Source: Comamonas kerstersii
GTDB lineage: Bacteria > Pseudomonadota > Gammaproteobacteria > Burkholderiales > Burkholderiaceae_C
Direction of reading: 5' to 3'
Length of the DNA: 64,000 bases
Assembly (NCBI RefSeq): GCF_008801935.1
Contig: NZ_VZOT01000001.1
Coordinates: forward strand, 372,001 to 436,000
Position numbers and translations under genes: made by a program
The notes under the pieces: generated by a model
Told to the model about the DNA's origin: nothing
Seen by the model: only the letters and a program-made list of their open reading frames with translations
Databases searched by the model: none
Part shown: positions 16 through 63,917 of the stretch, piece by piece
How the letters are laid out: each line of letters begins with the position of its first letter
How positions within the stretch are numbered: position 1 is the first letter of the stretch

Positions 16-95
16 ATAGCTGCTAGCGCATATATATAAAGGACTTCAGATAGTTTTCTATCTGAAGTCCTTATTTTTCAAGCGCTAACAGCTAT
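16..95. repeat. Dispersed nested-palindrome element, copy 1
   Basis: The outer arms are ATAGCTGCTAGCGC (16-29) and GCGCTAACAGCTAT (82-95). Inside lies a perfect 15-bp inverted repeat, 39-53 against 58-72, around a TTTT loop. A T-rich run follows the right arm. The element sits 17 bp past the stop codon of the minus-strand binding-protein gene that ends at 113. It belongs to a family found at nine other places in this window. Confidence 0.85.
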
Positions 96-6874: not shown

Positions 6875-7183
6875 TTATATCCGAACCCATCGCCATAATG
6901 CAGCAGTTACGGCCCCCAGCACCACAACCAGCAAAAATGGTGCACGCAGCAGCAAAGCGATGGCGGCCACCACCAAGGCAGCCAGGCGTGCATCCAGCGC
7001 CAGCGCCTGCCCTGCGGCAAAGGTATTCATCACTGTCAAGGATGTCAGCAAGGCCACCGTCATGCAGGCTGCAATATGCGCCATGCGCGGGTTCTGCAAA
7101 TAGCTCGCCGGAATCGCATAACCCAGAAACTTGGTGGCAAAGGCTACGGCGCAGGCCAGCAAAATCCAGTGCCACATGCTCAT
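6875..7183 (-). CDS. azlD: AzlD-family branched-chain amino acid export subunit
   Basis: This small membrane protein of about 102 aa begins MSMWHWILLACAVAF and has three or four hydrophobic helices, the AzlD pattern. AzlD works with the larger AzlC in exporting branched-chain or related amino acids. The ATG at 7181-7183 overlaps the azlC stop codon (ATGA), which implies translational coupling. The open frame runs further upstream to 7306, but that extension is antisense-like arginine-rich sequence inside azlC and is not needed. No terminator is seen after it. Confidence 0.9.
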   Translation of the reverse strand: MSMWHWILLACAVAFATKFLGYAIPASYLQNPRMAHIAACMTVALLTSLTVMNTFAAGQALALDARLAALVVAAIALLLRAPFLLVVVLGAVTAALWRWVRI

Positions 7184-7869
7184 GCCTGCTCCCTGATCAG
7201 GCGCGCGCTGCGCCACCAGCCCCATGCTGCCCCTACAACGGCCGCCACCAGAATGGGCAGCCCCGGTGGCAGCAGCGGAACGGCGAGCATGGTCACAACG
7301 CCGCACAGCACGGCCAGCGCCACCGGCTCACGCTGCCTCAGGCGTGGCCACAGCAGGCCCAGGAATGCCGCCACAGCAGCACCATCCAGTCCCCATTTGC
7401 GCGGATCACCCAGCGCATCGCCCAGCAAGGCTCCCAGCAGGGTGAAAGCATTCCACAGCACAAACACCCCCAGCCCTGCCGTCCAGAAGCCGCGCTGCTG
7501 CTCCTGCGGCTCCAGCTGGCCAGATGCCGTGGCGGCGGACTCATCAATCGTCAGCTGCGCCGCCGCAGCCTTGCGCCAGCCACGTGGCTGCAGCATGCGG
7601 TTCATCTGCATGCCATAGACGGCATTGCGCACGCCCAGCAAACTGGCGGCCCCCAGCGCCGCAGCACCTGTGCCGCCACCGGCGATGACGCCAATAAAAG
7701 CAAACTGCGAGCCGCCGGTGAACATCAGTGCGCTCAGCGCCATGGTCTGCCAGAGATTCAGCCCGGCCCCCACTGACAGCGCCCCAAAGGAGATGCCATA
7801 CAGACCGGTGGCAATCGAAATGGACAGCCCCATGCGCATGGCAGGCGTCCAGGATGATGGTGCGATCAC
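7180..7869 (-). CDS. azlC: AzlC-family branched-chain amino acid export permease
   Basis: This is an inner-membrane permease of 229 aa. The segment MRMGLSISIATGLYGISFGALSVGAG and the GGSQFAFIGVIAGGG helix match AzlC/YgaZ proteins. Hydrophobic helices run through the whole protein. It forms a translationally coupled pair with azlD. The regulator often found next to azlCD (Lrp or AsnC type) is absent. The repeat element at 7891-7970 lies 21 bp before its start codon, so either the promoter lies beyond the repeat or the repeat forms part of the 5' leader. Confidence 0.93.
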   Translation of the reverse strand: MIAPSSWTPAMRMGLSISIATGLYGISFGALSVGAGLNLWQTMALSALMFTGGSQFAFIGVIAGGGTGAAALGAASLLGVRNAVYGMQMNRMLQPRGWRKAAAAQLTIDESAATASGQLEPQEQQRGFWTAGLGVFVLWNAFTLLGALLGDALGDPRKWGLDGAAVAAFLGLLWPRLRQREPVALAVLCGVVTMLAVPLLPPGLPILVAAVVGAAWGWWRSARLIREQA

Positions 7870-7890: not shown

Positions 7891-7970
7891 ATAGCTGCCA
7901 GCGCTGATAAAACAAAGGTTTCAAATAGAAAACTATCTGAAACCTTTGTAAATCAAGCGCTAGCAGCTAT
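7891..7970. repeat. Dispersed nested-palindrome element, copy 2
   Basis: The outer arms are ATAGCTGCCAGCGC (7891-7904) and GCGCTAGCAGCTAT (7957-7970). The inner stem is 17 bp with one mismatch, 7912-7928 against 7933-7949, around AAAA. A T6 run follows the right arm. It lies 17 bp past the polA stop and 21 bp before azlC. Confidence 0.88.
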
Positions 7971-7987: not shown

Positions 7988-10798
7988 TTAATGGGCTTCT
8001 TCCCAATTGTTGCCTATGCCTACCTCCGCCAGCAAAGGCACAGACAGCTGGGCCACGCTGGCCATGACCGCCGGGATGCGCGCACGCAGCCAATCGGCAT
8101 CCCCTGCGGGCAGCTCAAACACCAGTTCGTCATGCACCTGCATGATGACTTGGATCTCAGGCTTTTCGGCATCGAGCATGGACTGCACGGCCACCATGGC
8201 CTTTTTGATCAGATCTGCTGCCGTGCCCTGCATGGGCGCGTTGATCGCTGCGCGCTCTGCCGCCTTCTTGCGCGGGCCGTTGCCACCGTTGATTTCCGGC
8301 AGATACAGGCGGCGGCCAAACACGGTTTCCACATAGCCTTGGCTATGTGCCAGCTCCACGGTTTCGTCCATGTAGCGCTTCACGCCGGGGTAACGCTGGA
8401 AGTACTTGTCGATGTAAGCCGCTGCGGCCTTGGTCTCAATGCCCAGATTCTTGGCCAAACCAAAGCTGCTCATGCCGTAGATCAGGCCAAAGTTGATGAC
8501 CTTGGCATAGCGACGCTGCTCGCTCGTCACGTCTTCCACGCTCACGCCAAACACTTCGGCGGCTGTGGCCTTGTGTACGTCCAGCCCTTCGCGGAAGGCC
8601 TTGAGCAGCGCCTCATCGCCCGAGAGGTGGGCCATGATGCGCAGCTCAATCTGTGAGTAGTCGGCGCTGGCAATCAGCCGGCCTTCCGGTGCCACAAAGG
8701 CTTCGCGGATGCGACGGCCTTCGGGCGTGCGCACGGGAATGTTCTGCAGATTGGGATCGTTGCTCGACAACCGCCCCGTCACGGCCACAGCCTGCGCATA
8801 GTGCGTGTGCACACGGCCGGTGCGCGGCAGCGCCATCTGCGCCAGCTTGTCGGTATAGGTGCCCTTGAGCTTGGAAAGGCTGCGGTGCTCCAGAATCTTG
8901 GCAGGCAGCGGATAGTCCTCGGCCAGCTTTTCCAGCACTTCTTCGTCCGTGCTGCGCGCACCGGTGGCGGTTTTCTTTACCACGGGCAGGCCCAGCTTGT
9001 CGAAAAAGATTTCGCCCAGCTGTTTGGGAGAAGCCAGATTAAAGGGCTGGCCTGCAATCTCATAAGCCTCGTTTTCCAGCTGCAGAATGCGCGCCCCCAG
9101 ATCATTGCTCTGGCGAGCCAGCTCACCGGCATCAATGCGCACACCGTTACGCTCAATGCGGAACAAGGCTTCACTGGTGGCCATTTCCAGTTCATAGATA
9201 TGGCGCAGCTTGGCGTCTGCCTCAATCTGCGGCCACAGCACCTCGTGCACGTTCAGCGTCTGGTCCGAGTCTTCGCAGGAGTAGGCTGCCGCCTTGTCCA
9301 CCGGCACCTGGGCAAAGGGGATCTGGTTCTTGCCCTTGCCACAGAGGTCTTCGTAGCTGATGCCGGTGCGGCCCGTATGGCGCAGTGCAAGACTCGTCAG
9401 GTTGTGCGGGCGATGCACTTCCAGCACATAGGACTGCAGCATGGTGTCGTGCGCATAGCCGCGCACGGTGATGCCGTGGTTGGCAAACACGTGCTGGTCG
9501 TACTTCACATGCTGGCCCAGCTTTTTCTTGGAAGCGTCTTCCAGCCATGGCTTGAGCTGCGCCAGCACCCAGTCCATGGGCAGCTGCTGGGGCACCTCCA
9601 TGCCTTCGTGGCGCAGCGGGATATAGGCGGCCTCGCCGACCTTGACGCTCAGCGAAATGCCAACAATCTGCGCACGCATTTCGTCCAGCGAATCGGTCTC
9701 GGTGTCAATGGCCGTCAGCCTGGCCGCGTGGATCTTGTCCAGCCAGCTGTGGAACTGCTCTTCGGTCAGGATGGTGGTGTAGACCACATCACGCTGCTGA
9801 GCAGCCACGGCCACTTCCGTGCTGGCCGCATCATCCAGATCAAACATATCGCCCTGAGCAGAAGCAGGCTTGGTGGCAGTTGACGACGTCTCTGCGGCTG
9901 GCACAGCATGGCTGGCCAGAGCGCGCGCCAGGCCCTTGAAGCCATATTGCTCATAAAACGACTGCAGTCTGGCGTTATCTGGCTCGTCCAGTGTGATGTC
10001 ATCAAAGGCAGGGAGACCAGGAATGTAGTCAGCCAAGTCGCAATCGGTTTTCATCGTGACCAGCTGGCGGCTCAGCGCCAGCTGGCCCGAGGCAATCGCC
10101 TCGCGCAGGTTGTTGCCAGCCACGCCCTTGATGGCTGCGGCGTTGGCAATCAGATTGTCCAGCGTGCCGTATTCTTCCAGCCACTTGGCAGCGGTCTTGG
10201 GGCCGACCTTGGTCACACCGGGCACGTTGTCCACGGTGTCACCAATCAAGGCCTGGTAATCAATCATCTTCTCGGGCGGCACACCAAACTCGGCGGTGAC
10301 ACCAGCCACGTCACGGCGCTTGCCATTCATGGTGTCGATGATGGTGATGCGCTCGTTCACCAGCTGCGACAAATCCTTGTCACCGCTGGAGACGATCACC
10401 TCCATGCCCTGCGCTGCGGCCATGTGTGCCAGCGTGGCAATGACATCGTCGGCTTCGACCCCGGGCACGGCCACCACCTTCCAGCCCAGCATGTCCACCA
10501 CGGCGTGGATGGGTTCAATCTGGCTGCGCAGGTCATCCGGCATGGGCGATCGCGTGGCCTTGTACTGGTCGTACATGGCATCACGGAACGTGGGGCCGGA
10601 GGCATCAAACACACACACGGCGTAGTCTGCCGTGATGTCCTTGCGCAGCGACTGCAGCATATTGATCATGCCGCGAATGGCCCCGGTCGCAGGGCTGGAA
10701 GGATCTCCGGGCACGGCACGCAGATCGGGCATGGCGTGGTAGGCGCGGTACAGGTAACTGGAGCCGTCTACCAGCACCAATGTCTTGGAATTCGTCAT
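7988..10798 (-). CDS. polA: DNA polymerase I
   Basis: This 936-aa enzyme has the three domains of Pol I: an N-terminal 5'-3' exonuclease (LVDGSSYLYRAYHAMPD at the start, GVEADDVIATLA near 115), a 3'-5' proofreading exonuclease that keeps the metal-binding motif DTETD near residue 366, and a C-terminal family A polymerase with DYSQIELRIMAHLSGD near 711 and QVHDELVFELP near 886. It fills gaps in DNA repair and removes Okazaki primers. The start is the ATG at 10796-10798 (MTNSKTLVLVDGSS); the frame opens 20 codons earlier but the family begins here. It is divergent from the DUF2782 gene. Confidence 0.98.
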   Translation of the reverse strand: MTNSKTLVLVDGSSYLYRAYHAMPDLRAVPGDPSSPATGAIRGMINMLQSLRKDITADYAVCVFDASGPTFRDAMYDQYKATRSPMPDDLRSQIEPIHAVVDMLGWKVVAVPGVEADDVIATLAHMAAAQGMEVIVSSGDKDLSQLVNERITIIDTMNGKRRDVAGVTAEFGVPPEKMIDYQALIGDTVDNVPGVTKVGPKTAAKWLEEYGTLDNLIANAAAIKGVAGNNLREAIASGQLALSRQLVTMKTDCDLADYIPGLPAFDDITLDEPDNARLQSFYEQYGFKGLARALASHAVPAAETSSTATKPASAQGDMFDLDDAASTEVAVAAQQRDVVYTTILTEEQFHSWLDKIHAARLTAIDTETDSLDEMRAQIVGISLSVKVGEAAYIPLRHEGMEVPQQLPMDWVLAQLKPWLEDASKKKLGQHVKYDQHVFANHGITVRGYAHDTMLQSYVLEVHRPHNLTSLALRHTGRTGISYEDLCGKGKNQIPFAQVPVDKAAAYSCEDSDQTLNVHEVLWPQIEADAKLRHIYELEMATSEALFRIERNGVRIDAGELARQSNDLGARILQLENEAYEIAGQPFNLASPKQLGEIFFDKLGLPVVKKTATGARSTDEEVLEKLAEDYPLPAKILEHRSLSKLKGTYTDKLAQMALPRTGRVHTHYAQAVAVTGRLSSNDPNLQNIPVRTPEGRRIREAFVAPEGRLIASADYSQIELRIMAHLSGDEALLKAFREGLDVHKATAAEVFGVSVEDVTSEQRRYAKVINFGLIYGMSSFGLAKNLGIETKAAAAYIDKYFQRYPGVKRYMDETVELAHSQGYVETVFGRRLYLPEINGGNGPRKKAAERAAINAPMQGTAADLIKKAMVAVQSMLDAEKPEIQVIMQVHDELVFELPAGDADWLRARIPAVMASVAQLSVPLLAEVGIGNNWEEAH

Positions 10799-20078: not shown

Positions 20079-20156
20079 GAGCACCTAGCGCAAGCACTGC
20101 CTTAGTTTGAAAGCGAAAACTCACTCAAAGTAAGGAAGTACAAGCGCTAGGCGCTC
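20079..20156. repeat. Dispersed nested-palindrome element, copy 3 (diverged)
   Basis: The outer arms are GAGCACCTAGCGC (20079-20091) and GCGCTAGGCGCTC (20144-20156). The inner stem CTTAGTTTGA with TCAAAGTAAG has one mismatch. It lies between the ubiB stop (20210) and the symporter start (19953). The arms differ from the main consensus in the outer few bases yet stay largely complementary. Confidence 0.65.
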
Positions 20157-24883: not shown

Positions 24884-24964
24884 ATAGCTGCCAGCGCTGG
24901 TATTTCCTTGATTTCAGATAAAAAACACTCTGAAACCCAGGAAAGATCAACGCAAGCAGCTCAT
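24884..24964. repeat. Dispersed nested-palindrome element, copy 4
   Basis: The left arm is ATAGCTGCCAGCGC (24884-24897) and the right arm GCAAGCAGCTCAT (to 24964). The inner stem TTTCCTTGATTTCAGA with TCTGAAACCCAGGAAA has 14 of 16 pairs. It begins 4 bp past the HIT stop codon and ends 22 bp before the DUF971 start. Confidence 0.82.
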
Positions 24965-34221: not shown

Positions 34222-35019
34222 ATGACTGCATCATTGATCACAATGACTACTGCTTTGAAACCCTGGCCCTACCCCCGCTGGGTGGCCCACCGCGGTGCTG
34301 GCAAGCTGGCACCAGAGAACACCATGAGCGCCTTCCGCCTGGGCGCACACTACGGCTACCGCATGTTCGAGTGCGACGCCAAGCTCTCCAAGGACGGCGT
34401 GCTGTTCCTGATGCACGACGCCACGCTCAACCGCACGACCAATGCACAGGGCACAGGCAGCGACCTGACCATGGGTGAGATCGCCCAGCTGGACGCAGGC
34501 AGCTGGCACTCACGTGCTTTTGCTGGTGAAGCCCTGCCTACGCTGGAAGCGCTGAGCCGCTGGTGTCTGGCCAACCACTACTTCCTGAACGTGGAAATCA
34601 AGCCCACGCCCGGCCAGGAACTGGAAACCGGCCACGCCTGCGGTGCGCTGATGAACAAGATCTGGCCACAGACAGAAGTGCAGCCGCTGTTCACCTCGTT
34701 CAAGCCTGATGCACTCCAGGGTGCCAAGGAAGTCGCGCCCCATATCCCCCGCGGCCTGCTGGTGGACAAGTTGGCCGATAGCTCGGGCGATGCCGACCTG
34801 CAGATCGCCCTGGATCTGGGCTGCCAGGTCATGGTGCTCAACCACGCGCTGTGGACACCCGAGCTGGTGGCCAAGGTGCATGGTGCAGGCCTGCGCTGCA
34901 GCAGCTACACGGTAAACGACGAATGGGCGGCACAGCGCCTGATCGATCTGGGCACCGACGCCATCATCACCGACCGTGTGGACCTTTTCAGCCCTGCACA
35001 AAGCGGTGCACACATCTAA
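34222..35019 (+). CDS. ugpQ: Glycerophosphodiester phosphodiesterase UgpQ
   Basis: The enzyme splits glycerophosphodiesters into glycerol-3-phosphate and an alcohol. The 265-aa GDPD barrel shows VAHRGAGKLAPENT, the metal-ligand pair ECD in MFECDAKLSKDG, and MHDATLNRTTNAQG. It belongs with the ugp transporter. The start is uncertain: ATG 34222 directly follows a terminator T run with no Shine-Dalgarno, and ATG 34243 (MTTALKPWPYP) is an alternative. Low expression by read-through or an internal promoter is possible. Repeat copy 5 follows. Confidence 0.94.
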   Translation: MTASLITMTTALKPWPYPRWVAHRGAGKLAPENTMSAFRLGAHYGYRMFECDAKLSKDGVLFLMHDATLNRTTNAQGTGSDLTMGEIAQLDAGSWHSRAFAGEALPTLEALSRWCLANHYFLNVEIKPTPGQELETGHACGALMNKIWPQTEVQPLFTSFKPDALQGAKEVAPHIPRGLLVDKLADSSGDADLQIALDLGCQVMVLNHALWTPELVAKVHGAGLRCSSYTVNDEWAAQRLIDLGTDAIITDRVDLFSPAQSGAHI

Positions 35020-35023
35020 AACA

Positions 35024-35103
35024 ATAGCTGCCAGCGCTTGCAAAAAGCCAATTTCAGAATCAAAACCATCTGAAATGATTGTTTGACAAGCGCAAGCCGC
35101 TAT
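35024..35103. repeat. Dispersed nested-palindrome element, copy 5
   Basis: The outer arms are ATAGCTGCCAGCGC (35024-35037) and GCGCAAGCCGCTAT (35090-35103). The inner stem is shorter, based on TTTCAGA with TCTGAAA. It begins 4 bp past the ugpQ stop and precedes a normal terminator at 35108-35141. Confidence 0.82.
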
Positions 35104-43926: not shown

Positions 43927-44005
43927 ATAGCTGCCAGCGCTCACAAACAAAGGACTTCAAAGGCATTTACCTTTGAAGTCCTTATTTTTTGCGCGCTAGG
44001 CGCTT
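43927..44005. repeat. Dispersed nested-palindrome element, copy 6
   Basis: The left arm is ATAGCTGCCAGCGC (43927-43940) and the right arm GCGCTAGGCGCT (to about 44005). The inner stem is a perfect 14 bp, AAGGACTTCAAAGG with its complement. It lies between the convergent CorC-like and lytic transglycosylase genes, so it could terminate both. Confidence 0.85.
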
Positions 44006-48452: not shown

Positions 48453-48491
48453 TTAGGCGCTAGAGCTTGTGCATCAAGCGCTAGCAGCTAT
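48453..48491. repeat. Short palindrome variant (no inner stem)
   Basis: The right arm GCGCTAGCAGCTAT (48478-48491) is paired with TAGGCGCTAGAGCTTG (48454-48469), 13 of 16 matches, across a 5-nt loop. The inner stem of the long copies is absent. It lies between the obg stop and the proB start. Confidence 0.7.
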
Positions 48492-57026: not shown

Positions 57027-57230
57027 ATGAGCGATTCGACCATCCACCCCACCGTGCAATGCCCGACCTGCGGCGGCCCTAGCCTGTTTGCGCCCAGCAA
57101 TGCGTGGCGTCCTTTCTGCAGTCAGCGCTGCAAGAACATTGATCTGGGCGCCTGGGCTGCCGAAGCGTTTCGTGTGCCAGCCCAGCCACCACAGGACAAT
57201 GAATACGGCGACCCGCGCAAGGAAGATTAA
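57027..57230 (+). CDS. yacG: DNA gyrase inhibitor YacG
   Basis: This small zinc protein of 67 aa has the four-cysteine site C12, C15, C31 and C35 (CPTCGG and CSQRC). The [19 protein letters not shown] segment is the family signature. YacG inhibits GyrB in E. coli. It ends the coaE-zapD-yacG run; repeat copy 7 starts 6 bp after the stop. Confidence 0.95.
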
Positions 57231-57236
57231 AAAACC

Positions 57237-57315
57237 ATAGCTTTCAGCGCCCAACAAATAAGGGATTCAAATAGTTTTCTATCTGAATACCTTTGTTTTT
57301 CAGCGCTAGCAGCTC
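57237..57315. repeat. Dispersed nested-palindrome element, copy 7
   Basis: The left arm is ATAGCTTTCAGCGC (57237-57250) and the right arm GCGCTAGCAGCT (57303-57314). The inner stem is AAGGGATTCAAATAG with CTATCTGAATACCTT, 13 of 15 pairs, around TTTT. It fills the gap between the convergent yacG and NUDIX genes, touching the NUDIX stop. Confidence 0.85.
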
Positions 57316-58763: not shown

Positions 58764-58843
58764 ATAGCTGCTTGCGCCGATCAATGCTTGGTTTCAGATA
58801 GTTTTCTATTTGAAACGCTTATAAATCCAGCGCAAGCTGCTCT
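58764..58843. repeat. Dispersed nested-palindrome element, copy 8
   Basis: The left arm is ATAGCTGCTTGCGC (58764-58777) and the right arm GCGCAAGCTGCTCT (58830-58843). The inner hairpin has TTTCAGATAG with CTATTTGAAA around TTTT. It is 26 bp before the DUF815 start and 165 bp past the argJ stop; the region 58844-59008 has nothing else recognisable. Confidence 0.85.
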
Positions 58844-63707: not shown

Positions 63708-63783
63708 TGGTGCCGGTTGTCGGATTCGAACTGACGACCTACCGCTTACAAGGCGGGTGCTCTACCAACTGAGCTAAACCGGC
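63708..63783 (-). tRNA. tRNA-Thr (anticodon TGT), copy 2
   Basis: This 76-nt cloverleaf on the minus strand has acceptor GCCGGTT, D arm GCTC-AGTTGGTA-GAGC, anticodon loop CTTGTAA with TGT, and T arm GTTCGAATC. The 3' CCA is encoded. It decodes ACA and ACN codons. It is identical to the copy at 63842-63917. Confidence 0.97.
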
Positions 63784-63841: not shown

Positions 63842-63917
63842 TGGTGCCGGTTGTCGGATTCGAACTGACGACCTACCGCTTACAAGGCGGGTGCTCTACC
63901 AACTGAGCTAAACCGGC
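63842..63917 (-). tRNA. tRNA-Thr (anticodon TGT), copy 1
   Basis: This identical 76-nt tRNA-Thr(TGT) is the promoter-proximal copy, with encoded CCA. The 58-bp spacer before copy 2 carries a 7-bp hairpin (63818-63824 with 63831-63837), a likely processing element. A -10-like TATTAG lies upstream on the minus strand at 63931-63936; the -35 is unclear. Confidence 0.97.

Follow-up and report, generated by a model that had tools for sequence, protein, structure and literature searches.

A family of fixed-length hairpin sites after genes in Comamonas, possibly read as folded DNA by a co-evolving protein

Why should a palindrome of about 80 bp recur eight times between the genes of a short stretch of bacterial chromosome, and is it a mobile element, an RNA signal or something else? 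The stretch in question, hereafter the window, is 64,000 nucleotides of the 3.51-Mb Comamonas kerstersii assembly (G000:C1:372001-436000). A first-pass annotation, made from the sequence alone, had placed eight copies there and described a dispersed, non-coding, REP/MITE-like family present in many copies, for which it favored recent or continuing mobility or selection for an RNA function. As described below, the family is real and relatives have copies too, but neither of the suggested causes fits it well.

A repeat of fixed length

All eight copies lie where they had been annotated (Table 1). In an unfiltered covariance-model search of both strands of the window, the same eight were the top sites, with scores of 55–83 bits compared with 18 bits for the next; the model had been trained on 35 sequences, the window copies among them. 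None of the eight overlaps a gene in our own calls, in agreement with the claim that they are intergenic, and the core of each lies 1–167 bp past the stop codon of at least one neighbor. Pfam matched 17 of the 18 neighboring ORFs, the remaining one being an opposite-strand alternative reading beside c2. Folding as single-stranded DNA gave every one of the eight a better result than any of its 200 dinucleotide shuffles (z −4.3 to −10.5). Rfam matches in the window consisted of two tRNAs, with nothing at gathering score on the copies, and a search over eight loci gave a single match on an element, at 29.7 bits compared with a gathering score of 83. Two tandem tRNA-Thr(TGT) genes lie on the minus strand of the window at 63708-63783 and 63842-63917.

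Table 1. Long and short hairpin copies in the window (core positions; gene strands in parentheses)
Feature	Position	Strand	Description and neighbors
c1	18..93 (16-95 with AT ends)	.	19 bp after TctC-like gene (113-1054, -)
c2	7893..7968	.	between AzlC-like gene (7180-7839, -) and DNA polymerase I-like gene (7988-10798, -); exact arms
c3	20080..20155	.	flanked by SSF symporter-like and ABC1 kinase-like genes (both -)
c4	24886..24961	.	7 bp after HIT-domain gene (-)
c5	35026..35101	.	between convergent GDPD (+) and FGase (-) genes; 6 nt after stop codon
c6	43929..44004	.	between convergent CNNM/CorC-like (+) and SLT-domain (-) genes
c7	57239..57314	.	between small gene call (+) ending at 57230, with ZapD-like gene upstream, and NUDIX gene (-)
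c8	58766..58841	.	between DUF815 ATPase-like and ArgJ-like genes (both -)
Short form	48455..48489	-	35 bp, asymmetric, one arm as in the long form; 11-bp gap between arms

The copies had been described as near-fixed in length, which is correct, but the reported spread of 78–81 bp is a matter of boundary choice: every copy has a 76-bp core running from AGC to GCT, and all eight measure 80 bp when the AT...AT ends are included. The reported density of about one per 7 kb is likewise true locally (8 in 64 kb) but not beyond the window, as a half-site profile found 95 copies in 1.256 Mb of the genome's own sequence, about one per 13 kb, which scales up to ∼265 per genome. Loose arm matches alone also exceed expectation (39 versus 19.3). 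Across the whole genome, exact arms with a gap of 40–60 bp allowed identify 28 copies, and the gap is 52 bp in all 28; at fixed length with up to three mismatches there are 192, compared with 0 for a reversed control pattern.

The length rule extends to the genus. A half-site profile trained on 48 own copies was applied at 25 separations to 2.02 Mb of DNA (nine sequence sets from six genus genomes); separation 0 gave 151 copies and the other 24 gave none. An indel within one of the halves would escape such a profile but not a scan of the arms alone (15-base arms, up to seven mismatches of 30), which returned 129 sites at 76 bp, one at 75 bp and one at 77 bp in 2.10 Mb of the genus; the other lengths between 40 and 129 bp gave a mean of 1.75 and at most 8. 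For four copies compared with two relatives each (flanks 87–98% identical), a 136-bp span is kept in seven of eight cases, and in the eighth, at 135 bp, the core is still 76 bp. The rule holds less strictly in other genera. A 0.40-Mb stretch of G015, a genome of another genus, has four copies at separation −1 and none elsewhere, and among the matches listed, sites of 75 bp account for 6 of 6 in G015, 1 of 18 in G010 and 1 of 7 in G004.

The covariance model matches 28 of 41 genus genomes, where counts take in both strands and a count of 117 is a lower bound, and 10 of 60 family genomes (one per genus). The 13 genus genomes without a match suggest that the function is dispensable, with the caveat that the model scores switched arms low. 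In the exact-arm scan, the named records, 80 of at least 99 stretches, belong to Comamonas, Giesbergeria, Paenacidovorax, Diaphorobacter, Simplicispira, Acidovorax and one Comamonadaceae bacterium, all of which we take to be Comamonadaceae. Viral contigs gave 0 exact-pattern matches and plasmids gave no blastn match to the typed consensus at E 1e-3, in sets from which records near this genome may be absent.

The window also contains a short form of the hairpin, which the first-pass annotation had missed. Searches of 400 kb allowing up to five mismatches found 16 short-form matches in contig C2 of the same genome, some of them by chance, whereas in G015 the short form outnumbers the long, with 37 at gap 11 compared with 5 at gap 51. 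Of the 60 family genomes, 6 have matches to a strict short-form pattern, with the highest counts in G015 and G010, and a mismatch near the foot of the stem seems to be kept in this form (also in G000:C2 and G015). An autonomous element with the same ends was considered and rejected: among 56 orphan half-sites from four sequence sets, the 32 listed look by eye to be mostly short forms or decayed long copies.

Fold, strand and gene context

Each copy is built from an outer stem, an unpaired A/T-rich internal loop, an inner stem and an A4/T4 tip. The outer stem has the consensus AGCTGCYAGCGCTTG, the internal loop has 6 nt on each side, the inner stem contains TTTCAG and the tip is 4 nt long; counting the A-rich and T-rich tails, the site occupies ∼104 bp. 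A first alignment of 35 sequences gave a weak pairing signal, with 75.2% of cells paired compared with 72.8% after shuffling and 1 of 500 shuffles as high. The pairing test was run on copies pooled with those of G069 and then rerun on the 95 own copies alone, where the stems have 2027 Watson-Crick cells versus 1851 expected (z 11.1), and slid partners give z −1.2 to 1.8. Covariation is absent from the internal loop (z 0.9, with one slid control at 3.8) and from the tails (z −0.6). The tip is anti-complementary (z −9.8), and most slid tip controls are negative too, the tip being A4 or T4.

A structured RNA family would be expected to have G-U in excess of A-C in the transcript, and this is not what we find. 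On the sense strand of 46 own tandem copies, GT and AC mismatches number 82 and 83 (o/e 0.95 and 0.92), and in 70 tandem copies from six genomes the transcript strand has 140 G-U and 133 A-C. The tails of the 70 tandem sites are symmetric, with A at 0.67 upstream and T at 0.71 downstream. Since the mismatches in the stems do not favor the transcript strand, selection probably acts on a DNA fold rather than an RNA one, and the mismatches and tails together speak against the RNA function that had been suggested. There is a strand asymmetry of another kind. Depletion in leading-strand sequence is weaker for G-T (o/e 0.92) than for A-C (0.77), which can fit a hairpin on the lagging-strand template but can equally be plain mutation bias. 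The latter is possible because A-C exceeds G-T in the stems on contigs C1–C3 whatever the gene direction (95 G-T versus 208 A-C on the negative-GC-skew strand). The sign of GC skew changes in G069, and there the second half is even (27 versus 29) and not reversed. An initial GT/AC count at convergent sites, 78 versus 161 on the plus strand, was not tied to gene direction.

The copies are concentrated at the ends of genes. Among the 151, convergent genes flank 68, tandem genes 70 and divergent genes 4; the remaining 9 overlap a gene call. Background intergenic regions of at least 100 bp number 134 convergent, 555 tandem and 235 divergent (chi-square p 5e-23). Convergent regions alone are strongly enriched (68 of 142 intergenic copies versus 134 of 924 background regions, p 1e-17), and in 15 of the 70 tandem copies the core starts 5–8 bp past a stop codon. 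These gene calls were made with our own codon-usage script, with Pfam as a check on the window neighbors. In 16 of the 18 genomes compared, the gene upstream of c5 has its stop codon within the left tail (35014-35026), 6 nt short of the core, and in many genomes a separate terminator-like hairpin can be seen by eye after the element.

Age of the sites and change of their arms

Six of the eight window sites (c3–c8) were compared in five relatives, c1 and c2 having given no usable two-sided flank match. The c5 site is present in all five (G107, G069, G088, G061 and G080). Sites c3 and c4 are present in G107, G069 and G088 and absent from G061 and G080; c6 is present in G069, G061, G080 and G088, and in G107 with changed arms; c7 is present in G069 and, with changed arms, in G107, and absent from G080; and c8 is present in G107, G069 and G080. 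In every present case the best separation between −4 and +4 is 0. Where sites are missing in some relatives, the sequences are too diverged for insertion ends to be defined.

The copies are old, and the recent or continuing mobility proposed for them is not supported. They share sites between species with flanks only ∼70–86% identical, and the closest pair among the 95 own copies is 85% alike in the interior. Several pairs reach 80–85%, above the maximum of a simulation with independent columns (74–78%), which ignores stem pairing. With both strands of the 95 copies taken together, each 24-mer is counted at most twice, so that a master sequence is not apparent, and a scan of 147 copies for target-site duplications turned up none that stands out (the best of 3872 end/length choices has z 3.6).

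The c5 site provides the clearest record of how such a site evolves. A search of the genus matched all 53 genomes somewhere, some by the element or a weak paralog alone, and yielded 30 loci including our own, 20 with a model match, all 76 bp long, and 10 without. In the 18 loci that have the 738-bp gene, parsimony requires at least 303 substitutions within the 76 bp, and no length change was seen; the parsimony script scored the 76-bp spacing only, and a length-free model search gave 76 for the 17 of 18 that it matched. Two of the 18 orthologs (L033 and L044) score low. The spacer of ∼20 nt between element and terminator underwent about nine length changes, two loci without a recognized terminator being counted as a state, and the distance from stop codon to element changed twice. 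The interior changes faster than third codon positions (4.62 versus 2.56 parsimony changes per site), and no change is seen in the AGC/GCT ends or, within the inner blocks, at the TCA and GA positions.

The arms themselves differ in the sister species G107, which has 35 sites of the type GCCSTTG-N46-CAASGGC and 0 of the type GCGCTTG-N46-CAAGCGC, compared with 0 and 67 in G000; the other 51 genomes have 0–3 and 0–64, respectively. All six G107 orthologs of c3–c8 carry the new GCC/GGC core, that of c3 on just one of its arms, as would be seen if sites changed one arm at a time. A single short-form site in G107 also has the new core. The drift of the arms may be more gradual than a switch. Exact arm pairs vary widely among element-bearing genomes, from 0 in G064 and 2 in G069 to 64 in G101. 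The arms of G069 differ from our own at positions 5, 6, 9 and 15 with p values of 5e-9 to 2e-21, which are optimistic because the counts were symmetrized. Restriction avoidance was considered as a cause and is unlikely, since GCGC and AGCGCT are not depleted in 57 kb of G107 (o/e 1.12 and 0.99). The change of arms would be best explained by a trans-acting reader of the sites.

Known hairpin families and candidate explanations

REP/BIME elements sit after genes. They are extragenic hairpin DNA, as here, in which REPs of 20–50 nt lie behind a tetranucleotide, most often GTAG (PMC8266576), whereas the Comamonas copies have no such tag and a fixed 76-bp geometry. REPINs, the REP doublets that form hairpins in Pseudomonas fluorescens and E. 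coli, have the same plan as our copies: inverted conserved ends, a spacer of set length and a hairpin with compensatory changes. The anatomy is thus REPIN-like, but membership fails. The ends are not tagged by GTAG, the foot of the stem being ATAG or AGAG with G in first place in 10% (48-copy profile); there is no dominant master sequence and there are no near-identical copies; no cognate RAYT gene tracks or adjoins the copies; and, unlike REPINs, the sites are common to several species and have changed arms at old sites. A MITE with terminal inverted repeats would be accompanied by a target-site duplication, which is not seen in the 147 copies. The Beta-proteobacterial repeat element (BRE) of Bordetella is similar in length (75–91 bp) and is reported also in Comamonadaceae, but it averages 69.0% G+C, forms tandem groups of variable copy number, lies in some cases within coding sequences and numbers at most 29 per genome in the accessible portion of PMC3110155; on this description we provisionally set it apart.

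A relative of the short form is in print. In the part of PMC5217627 available to us, a spaced motif of Acidovorax ebreus TPSY, GCTTAT(N)5AAGCG, has 114 copies, of which 107 are intergenic (44 convergent, 4 divergent and 59 co-oriented). The motif matches the core of the 35-bp short form (AGCGCTTATnnnnnAAGCGC), and its gene context is close to that found here. That portion of the 2017 report gives the short hairpin core alone, without the 76-bp form, a cross-species length test, a strand test or a proposed function. The same table has a motif of Polaromonas naphthalenivorans, ATAGCT(N)22CAAAAG, with 125 copies, which may be related to the Comamonas hairpins (PMC5217627, same portion). The first-pass annotation knew of no described name for the family; a short relative had been printed as an unnamed motif. 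Our literature search, from which subscription journals were mostly excluded, found no paper on the 76-bp form, and a term search of PMC3733652 and PMC6006769 gave 0 occurrences of Comamonas, Acidovorax, Delftia or Comamonadaceae.

The genome has one RAYT-like gene (G000:C1:475481-476182), which scores 40.7 bits against the NCBIfam model REP_Tyr_transpos, below its cut-off of 80. A relative of this single-copy, fast-changing gene is matched in 48 of the 53 genus genomes, two of these matches being weak (G083 and G086). All 13 genus genomes in which the element model has no match carry it. Five element-rich genomes, on the other hand, either gave no match to it (G064, which is 85% complete, G071 and G095) or matched it partially and weakly (G083 and G086). 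The Y1_Tnp matches of G083, G086 and G095 score like IS200-type TnpA, and G064 and G071 are without any. The RAYT locus (3.3 kb, with 1.5 kb on each side of the matched part) contains 0 copies. Given this phyletic pattern and locus, we rejected a dependence of the copies on RAYT, and with it the RAYT link that had been proposed for them. The RAYT copy of G107 has one in-frame TAG. Elsewhere in the C. kerstersii genome, locus L022 (G000:C18) has one IS200/IS605-type TnpA gene, adjoined by what we read as a TnpB-like gene.

We consider it about an even chance (∼0.5) that the copies are selected DNA hairpin sites of fixed geometry, read by a postulated co-evolving protein. Each copy would work as a DNA site in the form of a folded hairpin, although covariation and strand tests stop short of proving hairpin formation inside the cell. 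A putative trans-acting protein would recognize three features placed at set distances, namely the arms, the AGC...GCT ends and the TCA/TGA blocks, and would probably do so while the hairpin is extruded from DNA or formed on single-stranded DNA at replication. The combination of fast-changing letters with constant length suggests that such a protein reads the folded shape. The cellular role would be architectural or insulating, at the ends of transcription units. We infer all three of these elements, the protein reading, DNA as the selected form and the role at the ends of transcription units, from the sequence comparisons above.

This reading competes with several others. The copies might be REPIN-like, non-autonomous mobile hairpins that spread long ago, perhaps with low-rate copying by a RAYT-type or other single-strand transposase, their length being that of the copied unit. 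Such an origin would account for the RAYT-like gene in the genome, for the lesser depletion of G-T than A-C on leading-strand sequence, as expected of lagging-template hairpins, for the own pairs that are more alike than simulated and, easily, for the shared 75 bp of the G015 copies (6 of 6 among the matches listed and 4 of 4 in the stretch scanned). We nevertheless regard it as unlikely, because the gene occurs in all 13 genomes without a model match and is missing or weak in five element-rich ones, its locus is free of copies, the copies have no consensus GTAG, master sequence or near-identical members, and new insertions leave the switched arms at old sites unexplained.

Bidirectional terminators or stabilizers of mRNA 3' ends, selected as RNA hairpins, are improbable. 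They would explain the placement past stop codons, the convergent enrichment and the A-tract and T-tract tails around a GC-rich stem base. The sense strand, however, has no G-U excess, the A-tract upstream of tandem sites is about as strong as the downstream T-tract that a Rho-independent terminator would have, and c5 is followed in many genomes by the terminator-like hairpin of its own noted above; moreover, we know of no one exact length that terminators need. It is very improbable that the copies are decaying relics without current function, with compensatory changes arising by template switching within the palindrome. The rapid change of the c5 interior relative to third codon positions would be in keeping with decay, but the element length is constant while the neighboring spacer varies, the AGC/GCT ends and the TCA and GA positions of c5 are unchanged, and template switching should also mend the loop and the tip, both of which remain non-complementary.

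If hairpin sites read by a co-evolving protein are indeed what these copies are, they may, as a more tentative proposal, represent a new kind of chromosomal site: several hundred vertically inherited, geometry-locked hairpins after genes, rewritten in step as the specificity of the putative reader drifts. The genus would then hold a natural record of a genome-wide set of sites in which geometry was kept while the letters were rewritten. The constant length, together with the contrast in arms between sister species, leads to sharp predictions about a binding protein, and for that reason these sites would give direct access to the part that dispersed hairpin DNA plays in a chromosome, a question long open for REP-like elements.
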